DNA of 34,150 nucleotides from an uncultured Oscillospiraceae bacterium (GTDB taxonomy: Bacteria; Bacillota; Clostridia; Oscillospirales; Ruminococcaceae): positions 1-34,150 of the forward strand of contig CASDQY010000005.1 in assembly GCA_949282975.1 (NCBI GenBank), written 5' to 3'. The notes beneath the pieces are model-generated. The model was given only the letters and a program-made list of their open reading frames with translations, ran no database searches and was not told the DNA's origin. The translations under genes and the position numbers were made by a program. Below, in pieces: positions 2,409 through 33,989 of the stretch; the first letter of the stretch is position 1, and every line of letters starts with the position of its first letter.

Positions 2409-5400
2409 TCAGGATGCCGTCTCGCTTTGTCCGGCCACTTCGGATACATCCAGCTTCAACAGCTTGGACACACCCTTTTCCTGCATGGTAACGCCATAGA
2501 GCACATCCGCTTCCTCCATGGTGCCCCGGCGGTGGGTGATGGCGATAAACTGCGTCTTATCGCTCATCAGCCGAAGGTATTCGGCATATCGGGTGACGTT
2601 GACGTCGTCCAGCGCCGCTTCGATTTCGTCCAAAATGCAGAAGGGGGCGGGGCGCACCTTCAAAATGGCAAAATAAATGGCAATGGCCACAAAACTTTGT
2701 TCCCCGCCGGAAAGGGCGGAAAGATGGCGGATCACCTTGCCCGGAGGCTGTACGATAATTTCAATGCCGCTGCCCAGCAGATCTTCCGGATCGGTGAGTT
2801 TCAGCTCGCCATGGCCGCCCCCAAAGAGATCTACAAAAATCTTCTGAAAATGGCGGTTGATCTCTTCAAAGCTTTGGCTGAACAGTTCCTCCATCTTTCG
2901 GGTAAGCTGCCCGATCAGATCCTCCAACTCTTTGCGGGACTGTTCCACGTCCTTGAGCTGGGCCGACATAAATTCGTATCGCTGACTGACCTCCTGATAT
3001 TCCTCGATGGCGGAAAGGTTCACGCTGCCCAAGCTGCGTATCTCCCCTTTCACGGCCGCCAGCCGTGTCCTGGCTTTGGCGGGATCCTGTAGATCTTCCG
3101 CCTCCTGCCGGGCCTGGGAACGGGTCAGTTCATATTCATCCCACAGCTTGCGGATCACTTCGTCATATTCCTTCTGCAGCGTCTGCCGCCGCTCCTCCAA
3201 CTGGGCCAGACGGCGGCTGACCTCCTCCCGGCTGCGGCTGAGGCTGCGTTCTTCCTCCCGCAGCTTGGTAGCCTGCTGTTCCAGCTGGGTGCGCTGCTGT
3301 AAAATGATCTTCACCTGTTCCTCCAGCTTTTCCTGAAGCAGGCGGTTTGCTTCCCGTTTTTGGGCGCAGCCTTCGATTTCTTTTTGCTGCTGTGCCTGCC
3401 GCCGGCGAACCTGCTGAATCTGCTGGGCAAGCTGCGCCTGGAGCTGCTTGGATTCCCGGCTCTGCCCCAAAAGCTGCTCTATGGTTTCGGAAAGGGAATC
3501 CACATCCTTTTGCTGAGCCAGCTGTTCCAGCTGGAGCTGCTGAATGGAATCGTTTACCTCCTGACGCTGCTTTCGCAACAAATCCCCCCGGCCCCGAAGG
3601 GATTCCAGCGTTTTCTGGGATTGTTCCAGTTCCCGCTGGGTTTCGTCCTGACGGCGGCGCAGGGCGGCGATCTTCTGATTCTTCTCCTGAAGCTTTTCCA
3701 GAAAGCCTTCCAGTTCCTGCTCCATTTCCTCCACTCGCCGGGAGTACTCTGCCTGCAATGCTTCCAGTCGTTTTTGTTCCCCCTCGCAGCGAATCTGATC
3801 TTCTTTCACGGTGATCTGTTCGCTGTCCAAGGCGCTTAACTGGGCTTTGAGGGTATTGACTTCCTGTTCCAGCTTTTTGCTGTTTTGGGATTGTTCCCGG
3901 GCCTTTTGGGTCAAAACCTCCGCCTGCCGGGTCAGCTGGGCAATCTCCCCCGCCCGGGAAAGCAGCCCGGCGCTGCGGCTTTTGCTGCCGCCGGAAAAGG
4001 AACCGCCGGCATTTACCACCTGGCCGTCCAGGGTCACAATCTTAAAGCGGTAACCGAACCGTTTGCCCATCAGGGCGGCGGTGTCCAGATCTTCCGCCAC
4101 CACGATCCGGCCCAGCAGAGAATCCACAATGCCCTGATATTGGGGCTTGGTCTTGACCAGATGGCTGGCCAGGTCAATATACCCCTCCTGCTCCTCCAGA
4201 TCAAAGCCGGAAAGTTCCCGCCCCTTCACCGATGTCAGGGGAAGGAAGGTGGCCCGGCCTGCATTTTGCTGCTTTAAAAATCGGATGGCGCTTTTGGCGG
4301 CGGTTTCATCCGCCACCACAATGTTCTGCATGCTGCCGCCCAATGCGGTTTCAATGGCCAAGGCATACTCTTCCGGCACTTCCAGCAGCCGGGCCACCGT
4401 GCCGTGAATGCCCGAAAGCCTTCCGATGCGGGCCTGTTTCATCACGGCTTTTACCGACTGGGCAAAGCCTTCCAAATTTTCTTCCAGATCCCGAAGCAGT
4501 TTGGCCTTTTGGTTCATCTGTCCCGCCTGGCCCAGCAGTTCTTCCGCCATCGCCTGCTGCTGCTCTAATTTTTTCTGCCGTCCCTCCAGCTTAAAGCGGT
4601 ATCCCGCCTTTTGGTTTTCCAGAGTGTCCATCCGCTGAACCAGCAATTTGGCCAATTCTTCTGCCTGGTCCAGTTCCCGCCGGGTGCCCTGGGCGTTCTC
4701 CTTCATCTGGGAAAGCATCAGCTGGTTGTTTTCATAGGTGTTGGCGTCCTCTTCGGTCTGCCCGGTAAGCTGGAGAACCGTGAGCTTGTCCTCGTTTTCC
4801 AACAGCAGCAATTCGTTAATCCGGGCGCTGAGCCGGGCGGACTGCTGATCCGCTCCTTCGTCCTGCTCGGCCAGTTGGGCCAGCTGCTGCCGGGCGGCGT
4901 CCAACTTGGACCGGGTCTCTTCCAGCGCCCCTTTTAAGGAATCCATCTGTGTTTGCCGCTCTTGCAGCAGGCGGCCGGTTTGAAGATGGTTTTGCCGGAA
5001 GTCCTCCAACTGTCCGGTTAACCGGGCCGCTTCCTGATCAAAGTGTTCCAGATTGTTTTTGCCCACCGCTTCCTCGCTGAGAAGGGCGCTGTTTTGCTGT
5101 TCTAAATCTTCTTTTTCCCGGCGGCAGTCCTCCGCCCGGGACAGGCAGTGCTGCATTTGTTCATAGCTTTGGTTGATCTTTTCTTCCAGGGCCTGGCTGT
5201 TCTGCTGAAGATCCTCGTGTTCTACCTGACAGGCCAGGATCCGGTCATCCTGCTCCTTCAGCTTTTGGGCAAACTGATCCAGGCTGAGGTTCCACAGGGC
5301 CACCTCCAGCTGCCGCTTTTCCCCGCTGAGCTGCAAAAAGGCTTTGGCCTTTTCGCTCTGTTTTTTCAGCGGCTCCACCCGCTGCTGCAATTCCGACAAA

Positions 5401-27831: not shown

Positions 27832-27865
27832 AAAAAACCCGGCAGAACCAAAAGGCTCTGCCGGG
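27832..27865 (-). terminator. Intrinsic terminator of the large glycoside hydrolase gene
   Basis: Minus strand: CCCGGCAGAGCC, loop TTTT, GGTTCTGCCGGG (12-bp stem with one G·T pair), then TTTTTTCTTT. It lies about 28 bases after the stop codon. Confidence 0.93.
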
Positions 27866-27892
27866 CAATAGGAGGTGGAAAACCGGTTGTTC

Positions 27893-30800
27893 TTATAAGG
27901 TCAGGGTGCCATTGACCACCTGGGACAGATACATCACATCCAACAGGTTGACGCTGTTGTCGCCGTTGAAATCAATGGTGATGCCTTCCGGAGCAGTGGC
28001 CTTGCCCACCACGATCTGTGCCAGCGTCATCACATCCAGCACATTCACCACATCGTCGTCGTTGAGGTCGCCGGGAAGGTTTTCGTACACCAGGCCATTC
28101 ACGGCATCTTCCAGATCCGCCAAAGCGCTGCGGTACTGGCTGACGGTGACATCCTGGGCAGTCAACAGTCCGTTCACGGTATCCAGAGCATCGGCCAATG
28201 CCTGGTAAGAAGCTTCGGTGTAGAGGGACTGGTCATAAGATGCCGCTTCGTCCGCCGCCATCTGCAAAGCGCCGGTCCAATATTGGGCGGCAATGGTGGC
28301 GTAGTCCTCTACCTGCCGGCTGATGTACAGCTCGTCAATGGCGCCGTCAAAGGGAGTATCCCAGAAATTCACGCCCAGGTAAACTTCTGCGCCCTCACTG
28401 AGCACCTGCTGCACCGGGCCGTTGGCGATGGCCTGACCATTGACATAGATGGTGCCCACGCCGTTTTCGGCTGTGACCGCCACATGGGTCCATTCGCCGG
28501 TAGTGAAGTGGCCGGCGCCATCGGAGGGCACCAGGTCGCTGTAGACATTGCCGGAGGCCTCGCTGCCGTTATTGCTCCAAACCATGGGGCCGTTGTAGGT
28601 CAGCCAGCCTCTGGGGGCGATGCTCACCCACTTATACCCGTCCACCGTCATAAAGACTGCGGGGGTGTACTGGGTGGCGGTGTCCGCCTTCATCCAGAAG
28701 GAAACGGTATAGGTGTCGCTGTCCATGGTAGTGGGCAGCTTGTAGCCGGTGGAACCATTCAGTTCCACCGCCTGGCCTACCACACCGTCCACATAAGACT
28801 CGGTTCCGCCGGTGTTGTTGGCCCGGTTACCGGTGGTAGTGCCGGTTTCGTCGGTGATATTGTCGGTGAGGTTGCCTTCAAAGGAGTAGCTGCCGATGAC
28901 GCCGGAAGCAGTGGCTGTCAGGTTCAGCATGGCGTCCCGAAGAGCGGCGGCAGCCGCATTTGCTTCAGCCTGATTCGCAGGGTTTTCCTGCACGGTCAAA
29001 GCGGTTTCCAAAGCGACCTGGAAGGCTTCCAGGGCGGAAGAATCGGCGCCCACGGTGGAGGTGTTCTGTGCGGTTTCGATGGTCTGATCCAACAGGGTGG
29101 TGTCCACGCCGCTGGGAGTGGTTCCATTGTAGATCACCAAGGTATAGGCGGAGGTGTTTTCCCCGTCTTCGGAAGTCACCGTGACCTGGAAAACGTTGGT
29201 CCCTTCCATCAAGTCCAGATTCCGAATCTGGGTATCGTCGATGACAATATCATTCACGGTCACCACCGCATTGACATTGTTGGGAGTGAACTTCACGCCC
29301 AAGGTTTCAGCTGCCTCGGTCAGAGTCAGCGTCGCCACATTGTTTTCATCCATCAGCGCCAGAATATCGGTTTCCCCGGCGGCAATGGAAGCGAAGGAAG
29401 CATCGTCGTCGTATTCCTCCACAATGCCGCAGGTGCCGTAAATGGGACCGGCGGTGCCGCCGTCCACGCAGGCGAACTTCAAGGTGACCTGTTCCTTGCC
29501 CTGGGTCAGTTCCAGAGGAATGTCGAAATACTTGGTGAAGAAGCCGGAAGCTTCCGCATCCAGGGTAACGGTCTCCAACAGGGTATCGTCAATATAAATT
29601 GCAAAGGTATTGCCGGCATCCTGGCTGTGGAACTGCACCATCAGCCGGTTGGCTGCTTCGCTGTTCACCGCCAGATCGTAGGAGAAGAAGCCGCCTTCCC
29701 CATCGGCCTGCCGATAGCCCGTGCCGCCGAAATTGCCCACGGAACTGCCGCTGGTCTGCATGTTATGGTTGGTTTCCCGCTGGTCGTCGTTGGCCACAAT
29801 GGAATCCACCAGATGGCTGGAAGCCGCATTGGTTTCCTTGTTTTCCCGGATGGTTTCCTGCATGGCAGGGCTGTCCATCTCGCCGATGGTGAAATAGATG
29901 CCGTAGCGCAGGGAATCGTCCTTGGCGTAATGGGGGGTGAAATCCAAAGTAGCGGCGTCGGTTTCGGTAAGGGTTACATGAACCATACCGTCCTCATCCA
30001 TGGTCACGGTGTAGTGATTGGCCACATCGGCAATAAACTCTTGGGGGGTCTGGCCGTCGGTGGTCATGGAGATGATCTGCCGTTCGGTGCCGGTGGAGGT
30101 GGCATAGTGCACGGCATAGCCCCAGTAGGGCAGAGAGTAGGTGTCCACGCCCACTTCGCCCAAATCAGCGCTGAGCACCCAGGGACCGTATTTCAGGCCC
30201 ATGGTGTCGGAAGCGTCGGGCAGGTCGTAACCCACCAGGGTCATGGGGTATTCTACAGTAATGGTGTCGCCTTCATTCCAATCCCGGTTGAGGATGAGGA
30301 AGCCGCCGGAGGTACCGTAATCGCTGATTTCTTCGCCGTTGACCATCACCACAGGATCCCCTGCGCTCCAATCGGGAACCCGGATGCGCAGATCAAAGTC
30401 GCCGAAGGCCTGGGCGTCGTCCAGTTTATTCACGGTGAAGGTGGCGGTGTAGATTTCTTCGGGGTCCACGGAGGCGGAGTCGGTCTGGCTCAGCACCAGG
30501 TTCTTGTCCGCCCAGGTCACGTCGGAGCCGTAAAGCAGCACTGCATAAATGCTGTTGTCGTTGTGGTAATAAATGCTGTCGTTGAGCTTGGTGAAGCTTT
30601 CCATGCTGGTGCAGGTGCAGCACCAGAAGTCCTCGGTAGGCTCGCAGTAAACCTTGAAGTAACCGGTACCCATGGCCTGCCAATAGGTGGACATGCCGGT
30701 GGTGTGGTTCTGGGCGGAGAGGATGGAGTTGGTGTAGGTGTTGTCGTAGAAGTCGGCATATTTCTGGTTGCCGGTGACTTCAAACAGCATCCGGGTCAGC

Positions 30801-32932
30801 TTCAGCATATTGTACACGTTGCATGTTTCGTTGGTGTAGCCGTCCCGGTAAGAATCCAGAACATCTGCATCGTGGAAGTGCTCCTGCCAGCTGTTGCCGC
30901 CGGTAATGTAGCTGTGGTGGTTCACCACAATATCCCAGAAGTTTTCCGCCACGGTGAGGTAGTAGCTCATATCTCCGGCAGCGGCGTTATCCGCAAAGTC
31001 ATCGGTGTAAGCGGTATTGCCGTTTAAGGTCATATACCGGTTCATGGCGCCGATGATCTTGGGGATGGTGGTGTTGGCGTGCCGCCCGCTGAGGCAGTCA
31101 ATGCCCTGATAAAGCTGGTCAAACAGGCTTTCTTCATCGAAGTAATGAGCCCCGGCGATGAAGTGATCCCGGTTTTCATACCCTTCGCTGATGTGGTAAA
31201 GGTTGTACAGGGCATTGTTCATGCCGCCGTATTCGATGGTAAGGGTTTTATCCCGCTGGGTCTGGGTAAAGCCGTCCATGGTGGAATAGCACCATTCACC
31301 TAGCCACTGAGCCATTTCCCGGGCGGTAGCGGCGGTTTCATTGTCGGCATCCACGGTGCTCAGCTGCTGATAAGTAGTAATCAACCCAGAAAGGATGGCA
31401 TCCATGGTCCACCAGGGCACCAGGATGGACTGGCCGTCTACGCCGGTATCCAGGCCGTTGGCCAGACGGGTGAAGTTGGCTTCCTCAAAGGCGCCCAGAT
31501 AGCCGTTGCCGTAAGCATCCTGGCAAAGCTTCATGTTTTCGATCATGTAGCTCAGTTTTTCCTCAATCTGCTGATGGACGTCCTGCCGATCGGGATCGTT
31601 GACGGTATTGGCCCAGGCATAAGCCAGACCGGAGAGCATATGTCCTGCTGCGTTGCCCCGGAAGTTGGTATCTTCCCAGTTCACCGCACCGGAATGGGTG
31701 CCTGCCGTATAGGGGACGATGGAGGATACCGCCGTACCGTTGGAGGTGGTGGTCACACCGGCCAGATTGTAATAATCCACCAGCATCTTATCCGCATCCA
31801 GGCTCAGCAGGTAGTCGATTTCCAAATCCAAGTCTTCCAACAGCCATTGGTCGGTGAGCTGCACATCGGAAACGGCAAAGTCAGTCAGCTGGGAAAAATC
31901 GGTCTGGGCCGCTACGGTAAAGGTGAATTCCCTGGTCAGGGAAGCCGTTCCGTTCACTGCCGTAGCGGTAAGGGTTACCGTGGCGTCAGGGCTTCCCACC
32001 GCCGGACGGGTCACCACACCGGTGGTGGAGATCACAGCGGGGTCGGAGCTTTCCCAGGTGATGGTGCTGCCGTTGCTGCCCTGGGTGGGGAGATTCAGGT
32101 TGTTGGTGATGCCGCTGGTGTTGGCAAAGGAGATGGCATCCAGATCCGCCTGGGCCAGGGTGGCATAATCCACTGCTCCGCCCTGAGCGGCATACATGGC
32201 CACCACTTCCTCGGGAGTGGCGCATTTGCTCAGCACGTTGAATTCGTCCAGGGCGAAGTTGGCATAAGCGCTATCATAGCCCACGCCATGACTATTAAAG
32301 CCGATATATTTATGTCCGGTAGTTTCATTGATTCCGCTGGAAGCGCCGTTGGTGGTCACGGTCTGGGCCACGCCGTTGCGGTACACCGAACAGGTATTGG
32401 TGGCCCCATCAAAGGTGATCACCAGGTGGGTCCACTCACCCACAGGGAAAAACTCCGCCGCAGTGCCGGCGGCCGTGCTTTCCTGCACGCCGGTACCGGT
32501 GGAGACCCGCACCGAAATATAGCCGTTGGTGTTCAAAGAAACATACCAGCCTTCGCTGGCCCAGTTGCCGTCGTCCTTAAACCAGAGCAGGATATTTTCC
32601 CCGTTCATGGCAGAATCCGGCTTAATCCAGCAGGAGAGGGTCATGTTTTCCGGCTGGAGGTCGCCGGAAGTTCCCAGGTCCAGGTAGGTGGAGCCGTCCA
32701 GGTCCAGGGCCTGTCCCCCCTGAATGCCCTCTACATAGGTCACCGCTTTGTTGGCGGAAACGGTGATCCCGTTTTGAGAGGCATCGGTGAGATCGCCTTC
32801 AAAGGACAAGCTCAACTGGGTGTCGCTTTCCATTCCCTCAAAGGGAGCGGCAAAGACGCCCACAGGGAGCTGGGTCCCCGCCGCAATCATGGCGGCGGAA
32901 AGCAGTCCGGCCAGCAATCGTTTGCACTTCAT
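27893..32932 (-). CDS. Secreted multidomain DUF1680 (GH127/GH146-like) beta-L-arabinofuranosidase with dockerin
   Basis: 1679-residue extracellular enzyme for plant beta-L-arabinofuranosides. Order: signal peptide 1-28 (cut near GVFA-AP); LamG 38-250; bacterial Ig-like 255-342; catalytic helical barrel about 352-800; beta-sandwich to about 1015 (LKYGPWVLSADLG); beta-sandwich resembling DUF6805 1040-1175; cadherin-like 1185-1270; FIVAR-like 1278-1340; second LamG 1345-1555; second FIVAR-like 1556-1616; type I dockerin 1620-1679. Probable zinc/thiolate centre: E702 and C704 (ETCNVYNMLKL) with C771 and C772 (FWCCTCTSMES); E684 is a candidate acid/base. The usual CCxGTGME block has Gly-to-Cys and Gly-to-Ser changes. 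No cell-wall anchor: attachment would be through a cohesin elsewhere. Divergent from an araC-type regulator. Confidence 0.92.
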   Translation of the reverse strand: MKCKRLLAGLLSAAMIAAGTQLPVGVFAAPFEGMESDTQLSLSFEGDLTDASQNGITVSANKAVTYVEGIQGGQALDLDGSTYLDLGTSGDLQPENMTLSCWIKPDSAMNGENILLWFKDDGNWASEGWYVSLNTNGYISVRVSTGTGVQESTAAGTAAEFFPVGEWTHLVITFDGATNTCSVYRNGVAQTVTTNGASSGINETTGHKYIGFNSHGVGYDSAYANFALDEFNVLSKCATPEEVVAMYAAQGGAVDYATLAQADLDAISFANTSGITNNLNLPTQGSNGSTITWESSDPAVISTTGVVTRPAVGSPDATVTLTATAVNGTASLTREFTFTVAAQTDFSQLTDFAVSDVQLTDQWLLEDLDLEIDYLLSLDADKMLVDYYNLAGVTTTSNGTAVSSIVPYTAGTHSGAVNWEDTNFRGNAAGHMLSGLAYAWANTVNDPDRQDVHQQIEEKLSYMIENMKLCQDAYGNGYLGAFEEANFTRLANGLDTGVDGQSILVPWWTMDAILSGLITTYQQLSTVDADNETAATAREMAQWLGEWCYSTMDGFTQTQRDKTLTIEYGGMNNALYNLYHISEGYENRDHFIAGAHYFDEESLFDQLYQGIDCLSGRHANTTIPKIIGAMNRYMTLNGNTAYTDDFADNAAAGDMSYYLTVAENFWDIVVNHHSYITGGNSWQEHFHDADVLDSYRDGYTNETCNVYNMLKLTRMLFEVTGNQKYADFYDNTYTNSILSAQNHTTGMSTYWQAMGTGYFKVYCEPTEDFWCCTCTSMESFTKLNDSIYYHNDNSIYAVLLYGSDVTWADKNLVLSQTDSASVDPEEIYTATFTVNKLDDAQAFGDFDLRIRVPDWSAGDPVVMVNGEEISDYGTSGGFLILNRDWNEGDTITVEYPMTLVGYDLPDASDTMGLKYGPWVLSADLGEVGVDTYSLPYWGYAVHYATSTGTERQIISMTTDGQTPQEFIADVANHYTVTMDEDGMVHVTLTETDAATLDFTPHYAKDDSLRYGIYFTIGEMDSPAMQETIRENKETNAASSHLVDSIVANDDQRETNHNMQTSGSSVGNFGGTGYRQADGEGGFFSYDLAVNSEAANRLMVQFHSQDAGNTFAIYIDDTLLETVTLDAEASGFFTKYFDIPLELTQGKEQVTLKFACVDGGTAGPIYGTCGIVEEYDDDASFASIAAGETDILALMDENNVATLTLTEAAETLGVKFTPNNVNAVVTVNDIVIDDTQIRNLDLMEGTNVFQVTVTSEDGENTSAYTLVIYNGTTPSGVDTTLLDQTIETAQNTSTVGADSSALEAFQVALETALTVQENPANQAEANAAAAALRDAMLNLTATASGVIGSYSFEGNLTDNITDETGTTTGNRANNTGGTESYVDGVVGQAVELNGSTGYKLPTTMDSDTYTVSFWMKADTATQYTPAVFMTVDGYKWVSIAPRGWLTYNGPMVWSNNGSEASGNVYSDLVPSDGAGHFTTGEWTHVAVTAENGVGTIYVNGQAIANGPVQQVLSEGAEVYLGVNFWDTPFDGAIDELYISRQVEDYATIAAQYWTGALQMAADEAASYDQSLYTEASYQALADALDTVNGLLTAQDVTVSQYRSALADLEDAVNGLVYENLPGDLNDDDVVNVLDVMTLAQIVVGKATAPEGITIDFNGDNSVNLLDVMYLSQVVNGTLTL

Positions 32933-33020: not shown

Positions 33021-33048
33021 ATTATAGCAAAGCCCCCCTTTCAGGCAA
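33021..33048 (-). promoter_or_regulatory. Promoter of the large hydrolase gene
   Basis: Minus strand: TTGCCT (33048-33043), 16-base spacer, extended -10 TGCTATAAT with TATAAT at 33026-33021. The weak -35 fits an activator-dependent promoter. Two GGTTTGA copies (plus strand 33058-33064 and 33067-33073) lie just upstream. Confidence 0.75.
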
Positions 33049-33155: not shown

Positions 33156-33989
33156 TTGAAAGTACATCGCATTAACCGTTGTGCGCCGCTTTTGTTCCAT
33201 TGGGCCGGATATTTTTGCTCGCCGGACCCCGACTGGATCCATCTATCCCGTCTGCTCACCGATTACGAATTGATGATTGTGGTAAAAGGCACCCTGCACA
33301 TTGCGGACGGCAAACGGGAGTTTTCGGTAAAAGAAGGAGAGTATCTGCTGCTTGCCCCGGGCAGCGACCAACACGGCTGTCTGCAAAGCCAATGTGAATT
33401 CTTCTGGGTGCATTTTTCCCACAGCAAATTGCTGCTGCCCGAAGAAGTGGACCCCGATTCCGTTTCTTTTTCCGACAAAATCATTGCTGTCCCGGAACAC
33501 GGCGTGCTGTCCGACACCACCGTTGTCTGGAACCAGATGCGGCTTTTACTGAAACATCACCGCCTGTACGACGATCCCCACATCGCCGCAGCGGACACCA
33601 TGGTGGTGCTTTCCCTGTTGCAGCACCAATGCCTGCGGGAACGCCTTTCGGAACAGGCCCCGGTGAAAGACGACCTCCAAGGCAAGATTTTAGATTATCT
33701 CAACTGGCACATTCATGAAAACATCCGGGTCAGCCAGGTGGCCGCCCATTTGGGATACAATGAAAAATACCTCTCCACCCTCTTCACCTCCATGACCGGG
33801 GAAAGCATCAAGCACTATATCCTCTGCCAAAAGATGGAGATCGCCAAGCGCCAGCTGACCAACACCAATGTTCCCATTACCGCCATCGCCGCCAATATGG
33901 GTTTTTCCGACAGCCACAACTTTTCCACGGCCTTTAAAAAGATTGTGGGAATGTCCCCCCGGGAATACCGAAAGGAATACCGGGAGTAA
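33156..33989 (+). CDS. AraC-family transcriptional regulator
   Basis: 277 residues. N-terminal cupin-like sensor (TDYELMIVVKGTLHIADGK, VKEGEYLLLAPGSDQHG) and C-terminal AraC/XylS domain with two helix-turn-helix units: IRVSQVAAHLGYNEKYLSTLF and VPITAIAANMGFSDSHNFSTAFKK, ending MSPREYRKEYRE. Start is TTG with GGAGGTGA seven bases upstream. Divergent from the arabinofuranosidase gene with a 223-base shared upstream region, so it is most likely its sugar-responsive activator; the ligand is unknown. I could not assign a convincing -10/-35 for this gene. Followed by a terminator. Confidence 0.94.
   Translation: MKVHRINRCAPLLFHWAGYFCSPDPDWIHLSRLLTDYELMIVVKGTLHIADGKREFSVKEGEYLLLAPGSDQHGCLQSQCEFFWVHFSHSKLLLPEEVDPDSVSFSDKIIAVPEHGVLSDTTVVWNQMRLLLKHHRLYDDPHIAAADTMVVLSLLQHQCLRERLSEQAPVKDDLQGKILDYLNWHIHENIRVSQVAAHLGYNEKYLSTLFTSMTGESIKHYILCQKMEIAKRQLTNTNVPITAIAANMGFSDSHNFSTAFKKIVGMSPREYRKEYRE

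Follow-up and report, generated by a model that had tools for sequence, protein, structure and literature searches.

Bll3HypBA1 (BLLJ_1848) of Bifidobacterium longum, a GH146 enzyme, and the type II dockerin of complex 2Y3N are among the described systems that come closest to the protein presented here. In Bll3HypBA1, the residues E694, E723, C725, C804, C805 and E578 are reported to be essential, and its N-terminal LamG module boosts activity 5.8-fold on larch arabinogalactan, 1.7-fold on sugar beet arabinan and 1.1-fold on gum arabic AGP (PMC10850190). For the arabinanase AbnA of Geobacillus stearothermophilus, domain 4 is proposed to be an arabinan-binding CBM (PMC9110388). For type II dockerins, recognition residues of hydrophobic character have been described (PMC5590126, PMC8063739). 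In complex 2Y3N hydrophobic contacts dominate, Met10, Met14 and Phe20 contribute (17, 21 and 27 in the numbering of that study), and a two-orientation mode of binding has been proposed for the dockerin (PMC8063739). The type II pattern of B. cellulosolvens is made up of Met10 and Ala17 (PMC5590126).

The stretch of DNA analysed in our study (34,150 nucleotides, hereafter the window) belongs to a genome (G000) of Egerieicola, the name given to the GTDB genus UBA1375 of the Ruminococcaceae from chicken faecal metagenomes (PMC8035907). This poultry gut genus is known here from metagenome-assembled genomes only, and G000 was compared with two further genomes of the genus (G001 and G002), the three being 83-86% complete. 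An ORF scan delivered a minus-strand frame from ATG (32932) to stop (27893) that encodes 1679 aa. The features of this gene and its flanks are as follows:

27837..27866, minus strand: terminator-like hairpin just past the stop codon (13 pairs, 9 of them GC, T-rich tail)
27893..32932, minus strand: GH146-like beta-L-arabinofuranosidase with dockerin, 1679 aa (predicted from ORF, Pfam, PDB and orthologues)
27920..28075, minus strand: dockerin, residues 1620-1671, repeats DLNDDDVVNVLDVMTLAQ and DFNGDNSVNLLDVMYLSQ (PF00404; genus profile A4)
28319..28894, minus strand: LamG module 2, residues ~1347-1538 (PDB match 5ho0/5hon)
29129..29332, minus strand: cadherin-like beta sandwich, residues 1201-1268 (PF12733)
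29435..29809, minus strand: DUF6805, residues 1042-1166 (PF20620)
30242..30550, minus strand: GH127/146 middle beta-sandwich (Glyco_hydro127M), residues 795-897 (PF20736)
30581..31867, minus strand: catalytic domain, residues 356-784 (PF07944; alignment to 8k7x and 5opj)
31904..32128, minus strand: aBig_2, residues 269-343 (PF20578)
32204..32698, minus strand: LamG module 1, residues 79-243 (PF13385)
32849..32932, minus strand: signal-peptide-like N terminus, residues 1-28, hydrophobic at 6-28 (hydropathy scan)
33021..33048, minus strand: promoter-like site TTGCCT-16-TATAAT with TG extension (promoter scan; such sites are no more numerous in the region than in shuffles)
33156..33986, plus strand: divergent AraC-family regulator gene (Pfam; 90% and 86% identical to the neighbours in L029 and L030)

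Full-length orthologues are present in Ruminococcaceae bacterium UBA1375 (89% identical) and in Candidatus Egerieicola pullicola (86%). Codon differences to these two are concentrated at the third base (145/93/461 and 203/106/561 at positions 1/2/3). Together with the flanking promoter-like site and the terminator-like hairpin, the orthologues and the codon bias establish the frame as a real gene rather than a chance ORF. The giant multimodular protein proposed by the initial annotation was hence confirmed, and the minus strand, absent from that annotation, can be added. Likewise, its two LamG modules and total of about ten modules were found by Pfam and PDB matches, with helical linkers counted; Laminin_G_3 matched two stretches of the protein, best at 79-243.

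The AraC-family gene is a conserved neighbour of the enzyme gene in each of the three genus genomes and probably controls it, as a plausible local regulator. Downstream of the enzyme gene lies a Sir2-family gene, followed further on by housekeeping genes. These neighbours rule out a local sugar-utilisation cluster, and only the AraC-family gene looks linked.

The catalytic domain was found by Pfam as a single GH127-type match at 356-784 (E 6.1e-67), which agrees with the earlier DUF1680/GH127 label as far as one such domain is concerned. The PDB scores (phmmer) demand that the label should read GH146-like: the best matches were 8k7x (332 bits), 5opj, which we take to be BT0349 (272 bits), and 8k7y, presumably a GH146 enzyme (271 bits), compared to 47, 44 and 35 bits for 4qjy, 5mqo and 6ex6, which were taken as GH127-type chains. 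With the GH146 chains ahead by more than 220 bits, we rejected a classical GH127 enzyme. The chain 8k7x was identified as Bll3HypBA1 from its name and the matching residue spacing. In the alignment with it, the essential residues listed above correspond, in the same order, to E684, E702, C704, C771, C772 and E567 of the window protein. E684 thereby takes the place of the acid/base and C771 that of the nucleophile, with E702, C704, C771 and C772 as zinc ligands, so that the GH146 hallmarks (Cys3-Glu zinc site, cysteine nucleophile and Glu acid/base) are present. The catalytic and zinc residues are unchanged in the orthologues of all three genomes. F448 of Bll3HypBA1 corresponds to F424 in the same alignment (counted by hand), and this hand mapping of F424, together with L504, hints at a Bll3HypBA1-like pocket. 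The enzyme is thus predicted to be a retaining beta-L-arabinofuranosidase of the GH146 kind with a zinc-coordinated cysteine nucleophile.

Cleavage of another sugar by this domain has to be considered, as the GH127/146 group includes the aceric acid hydrolase BT1003 (PMC10850190). The NCBIfam model for aceric acid hydrolase does match the window protein, yet the score of 49 bits lies far below the cut-off of 950, and the nearest solved chains are beta-L-arabinofuranosidases that have the essential residues in common with it. We therefore regard a different sugar as improbable and continue with the beta-L-arabinofuranosidase.

The modules around the catalytic domain point in the same direction. 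LamG module 2 is homologous to a part of AbnA (5ho0 with 149 bits and 5hon with 110 bits in the PDB search), and the LamG modules of the window enzyme probably hold arabinan or arabinogalactan. AbnA itself differs in being a GH43 enzyme, and the passages of PMC9110388 that deal with it name no dockerin. Bll3HypBA1, the closest solved structure by sequence, shares with the window enzyme the GH146 catalytic domain with the same catalytic and zinc residues, and also a signal peptide, putative in the window enzyme, two LamG modules and Ig-like domains (PMC10850190). A transmembrane anchor is described for Bll3HypBA1 in the same source, whereas the window enzyme ends in a C-terminal dockerin instead of an anchor, so that tethering would need a separate cohesin.

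The dockerin was detected by the Pfam model Dockerin_1 at residues 1620-1671 (29.9 bits, E 6.6e-7, above the cut-off of 22.9) and comprises two tandem calcium loops. A script read-out returned the ten calcium ligands D1622, N1624, D1626, N1630, D1633 and D1654, N1656, D1658, N1662, D1665, with V1631-L1632 and L1663-L1664 at positions 10-11 of the two repeats, exactly as stated in the initial annotation. At the other positions of interest the repeats carry M14 twice, A17 and S17, and V20 twice. A structure predicted from three sequences was of poor quality, with a pLDDT of 68.6, and Foldseek with this model gave no match at E <= 0.001, though all ten best hits were dockerin chains.

The hydrophobic pair had been read as a sign of unusual specificity. 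Our comparison shows instead that it is the common dockerin code of the genus, and an unusual dockerin within this organism is ruled out. The Pfam search of the G000 contigs returned 12 dockerin matches, and a genus profile (A4), built from 23 genus modules, the adaptor dockerins and three more having been set aside, found 11 genus-type dockerins, one of which (on C13) is absent from the Pfam matches. About a dozen dockerins of the genome, that of the window enzyme among them, are closely alike and two-fold symmetrical, with VNVLDVMxLAQ in both repeats. Over the three genomes we counted 29 genus-type modules with 58 repeats, a count to which the C61 and C12 dockerins of G000, not recognised by the genus profile at 1e-7, do not contribute. 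Position 10 is Val in 50 repeats and Leu in eight, position 11 is Leu in 45 and position 17 is Ala in 54; Met14 occurs in 58/58, as the script searched for Met14, two per module. Both recognition positions belong to VILMF in 50/58 genus repeats compared to 12/86 in relatives, the latter from 44 modules taken as the best PF00404 matches with at most three per genome. Among another 27 modules from outside the genus, 26 of 56 loops were hydrophobic, a bias that is expected since these modules were picked for likeness to A4. The window dockerin scored 95.4 bits with A4; scores ranged from 51 to 95 bits on genus modules and reached at most 53 elsewhere among 297 sampled family genomes, a gap that arises partly by construction because the profiles were built from sequences of the genus itself.

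In type I dockerins, positions 10-11 are occupied by a polar pair of the Ser/Thr type, as in C. thermocellum, and some other species differ. The window dockerin has VL and LL in place of this polar pair. The term type I, as used earlier, was wrong as a label of specificity and is only the family name in Pfam. Among PDB chains the genus profile matched 2y3n_B best (44.9 bits, the next at 34.4), and the contacts Met10, Met14 and Phe20 of that dockerin correspond to V10 (L10 in repeat 2), M14 and V20 here. With the same profile 4u3s_B, 4wi0_B and 2b59_B, which we take to be type II dockerins, and also 5k39_B scored below type I dockerins. We conclude from the sequence comparison that the dockerin appears type-II-like in its recognition face, a classification that rests on the B. 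cellulosolvens relative, given the lower scores of the remaining type II chains.

A lack of cohesins in the genome had been named as evidence against a partner. This is ruled out, since five G000 contigs yielded seven cohesin matches, in a genome that also has dockerins, and proteins of both kinds occur together in all three genomes of the genus. Two cohesin proteins are orthologous in all three, each carrying one cohesin. The first (C18, 322-326 aa) has an N-terminal hydrophobic segment, the cohesin, a Big_2 domain, a C-terminal membrane segment and a basic tail (Pfam domains read on the G000 copy only) and is called the anchor here. The second (C13, 464-486 aa), the adaptor, combines a LamG-like part, a cohesin and a genus-type dockerin. 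In 294 other sampled genomes of the family, neither cohesin has a close or strong match: the anchor had one match of 27.9 bits compared to 284-291 within the genus, and the adaptor two of 27-28 bits compared to 265-271.

The cohesin matches are modest, which lends some weight to the idea that the dockerin is vestigial or merely calcium-binding, with no cohesin partner, and that the matches represent generic immunoglobulin-like folds. The anchor cohesin reached 26.9 bits in Pfam against a cut-off of 24.1, and its best PDB match (E 0.021) is not clearly type II. For the adaptor cohesin the first seven PDB matches are cellulosomal proteins, including 2y3n_A and 5g5d/5k39, at weak E values of 1.7e-4 to 0.5, and no significant cohesin match came up when the C13, C18 and C86 proteins were searched singly against the PDB. 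Moreover, eight of the 32 dockerin-positive genomes among 61 searched have no cohesin. Profile comparison by hhalign, in turn, revealed that anchor and adaptor resemble the cohesins of relatives (E 6e-7 and 5e-12). Both repeats are symmetrically conserved in 29 modules, and an orthologous protein combining cohesin and dockerin is kept in 3/3 genomes. Cohesins are found in 16/16 genomes with at least four dockerins and in 10/45 others (Fisher p 2.6e-8, relatedness ignored). A vestigial dockerin is thus very improbable, and a partner among the cohesins of the genus is the preferred reading.

Further cohesin-like proteins were seen in single genomes. In G000, three cohesin stretches and several Big_2 domains were detected in a protein of 1336 aa (C86, L017:2466-6473, minus strand), together with VPTTG ahead of its C-terminal membrane segment; from this layout it is a possible multi-cohesin surface scaffoldin, and among the G001/G002 proteins compared it matched through its Big_2 part only. 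The large protein on C61 (L016:7324-12000, plus strand) has its modules in an odd order: a cohesin match at the N terminus is followed by a membrane-like segment, then by a different type of dockerin and a region like the N terminus of M26 peptidases. On C12 (L020:3275-7716, minus strand) a cohesin-like protein that ends in a PQTG-type C terminus adjoins an LRR protein, whose different dockerin has recognition positions of the DN/DD type and perhaps forms a separate pair with its neighbour. For the C61 and C12 proteins, no counterpart was found among the compared proteins of G001 and G002. C61, C12 and C86 were left out of the model as core scaffoldins, lacking matches of their cohesin parts in those proteins, which does not exclude them biologically. 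In G002, a cohesin-SLH protein adjoins an LRR-dockerin gene (C5, L091:2414-3562 and 3788-4891, minus strand).

The dockerin-bearing proteins were surveyed in G002, where profile A4 found 13 genus-type modules. Five of the 13 proteins bear signatures of plant-directed CAZymes: the GH146 orthologue, a GH51-type enzyme (ASD1_dom and Alpha-L-AF_C), a double GH43, a GH2 and a LamG/CBM35 protein whose middle part resembles GH5/39-type enzymes (5u22, 8uwt, 8i0j). One is the adaptor, and the remaining seven are a GH25 protein, a transglutaminase-core protein, the protein encoded next to it, for which Pfam gave no hit, two LRR proteins, an unclassified protein and a short frame. The double GH43, the no-Pfam protein and the transglutaminase-core protein are encoded in a row (C12 of G002, L163:1742-9528, plus strand), and orthologues of the first two adjoin in G000 too (L023). 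G000 encodes complete orthologues of the GH43, GH25 and adaptor proteins, with C-terminal parts of the GH51-type and GH39-like proteins located at contig ends (70-81% identity), and a fragment of 68 aa matches the dockerin end of the GH2 protein. GH9 and GH48 were found in none of the three genus genomes (83-86% complete), the same search for GH48 being positive in 3/6 dockerin-rich relatives. The plant-directed CAZymes with dockerins mostly belong to arabinofuranose-acting or side-chain families, which fits an arabinose-directed, non-cellulolytic complex as far as family assignment can tell.

The composition of this set also allows another reading, in which the enzyme is as described and the dockerins serve general surface display of many secreted proteins, such as lysozyme, LRR, transglutaminase and CAP proteins, with no complex dedicated to a substrate. 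Several dockerin proteins of the genus (GH25, transglutaminase-like, LRR, CAP) are indeed not plant CAZymes, accounting with the short and unclassified ones for seven of the 13 in G002, and both conserved scaffoldin-like proteins carry a single cohesin. Against this, the plant-directed CAZymes cluster in families that act on arabinofuranose, and a C-terminal LamG-linker-dockerin tail is common to three of them, the GH146, GH51-type and GH39-like proteins. General display is in our view unlikely.

We favour, with a probability of roughly two in three, a secreted GH146-kind enzyme whose dockerin joins a small surface-tethered, arabinose-releasing complex. Most likely, the window dockerin would plug into the genus's own cohesins by a hydrophobic face, as in type II, and in either orientation. 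Candidate partners are the membrane-anchored single-cohesin protein and the LamG-cohesin-dockerin adaptor, and in one relative the cohesin-SLH protein. The outcome would be a small complex at the surface made up of GH146, GH43, GH51 and GH2 enzymes and the GH39-like protein, not a cellulose-degrading cellulosome. What the initial annotation had guessed at, a non-classical gut cellulosome acting on arabinose-rich plant material, thus became the best-supported reading, given the cohesins and the arabinofuranose-acting CAZymes with dockerins, as far as sequences allow. More tentative, and at slightly less than even odds, is the specific proposal of an 'arabinosome' for arabinan and arabinogalactan that is private to the genus, in which type-II-like, hydrophobic dockerins of dual orientation would sit on single-cohesin anchors and LamG adaptors and use a code evolutionarily separate from that of other dockerin-rich members of the family. 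In the open-licence literature we found neither this term nor a paper on cohesins or dockerins of Egerieicola. If the complex exists, arabinose-rich pectin side chains and plant glycoproteins would join cellulose, starch and mucin as substrates of cohesin-dockerin systems in the gut. The compact set of like dockerins and two cohesins would be a convenient system in which to study the origin of hydrophobic type-II-like recognition, and might become useful for the design of an orthogonal cohesin-dockerin pair.

In comparison with known systems, the dockerin of Cel48 from Bacteroides (Pseudobacteroides) cellulosolvens (2Y3N) is, like the window dockerin, enzyme-borne and symmetrical with a DVMxLAQ helix, and it shares a hydrophobic position 10, Met14 and Ala17 with the dockerins of the genus. 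The genus differs by Val/Leu for Met10, Leu as the usual residue at 11 and Val/Ile for Phe20, and further by scaffoldin-like proteins with few cohesins and by the lack of a detected GH48. The amylosome of Ruminococcus bromii resembles the genus system as that of a gut bacterium in which rather few proteins with cohesins or dockerins serve one non-cellulosic substrate. The same likeness is seen to the Limousia mucinolysome (PMC12997984). What sets the genus apart from both is that its two conserved cohesins stay without strong match outside the genus among the sampled family genomes, and that its enzyme set points to arabinan and arabinogalactan, instead of starch as for the amylosome or mucin as for the mucinolysome.
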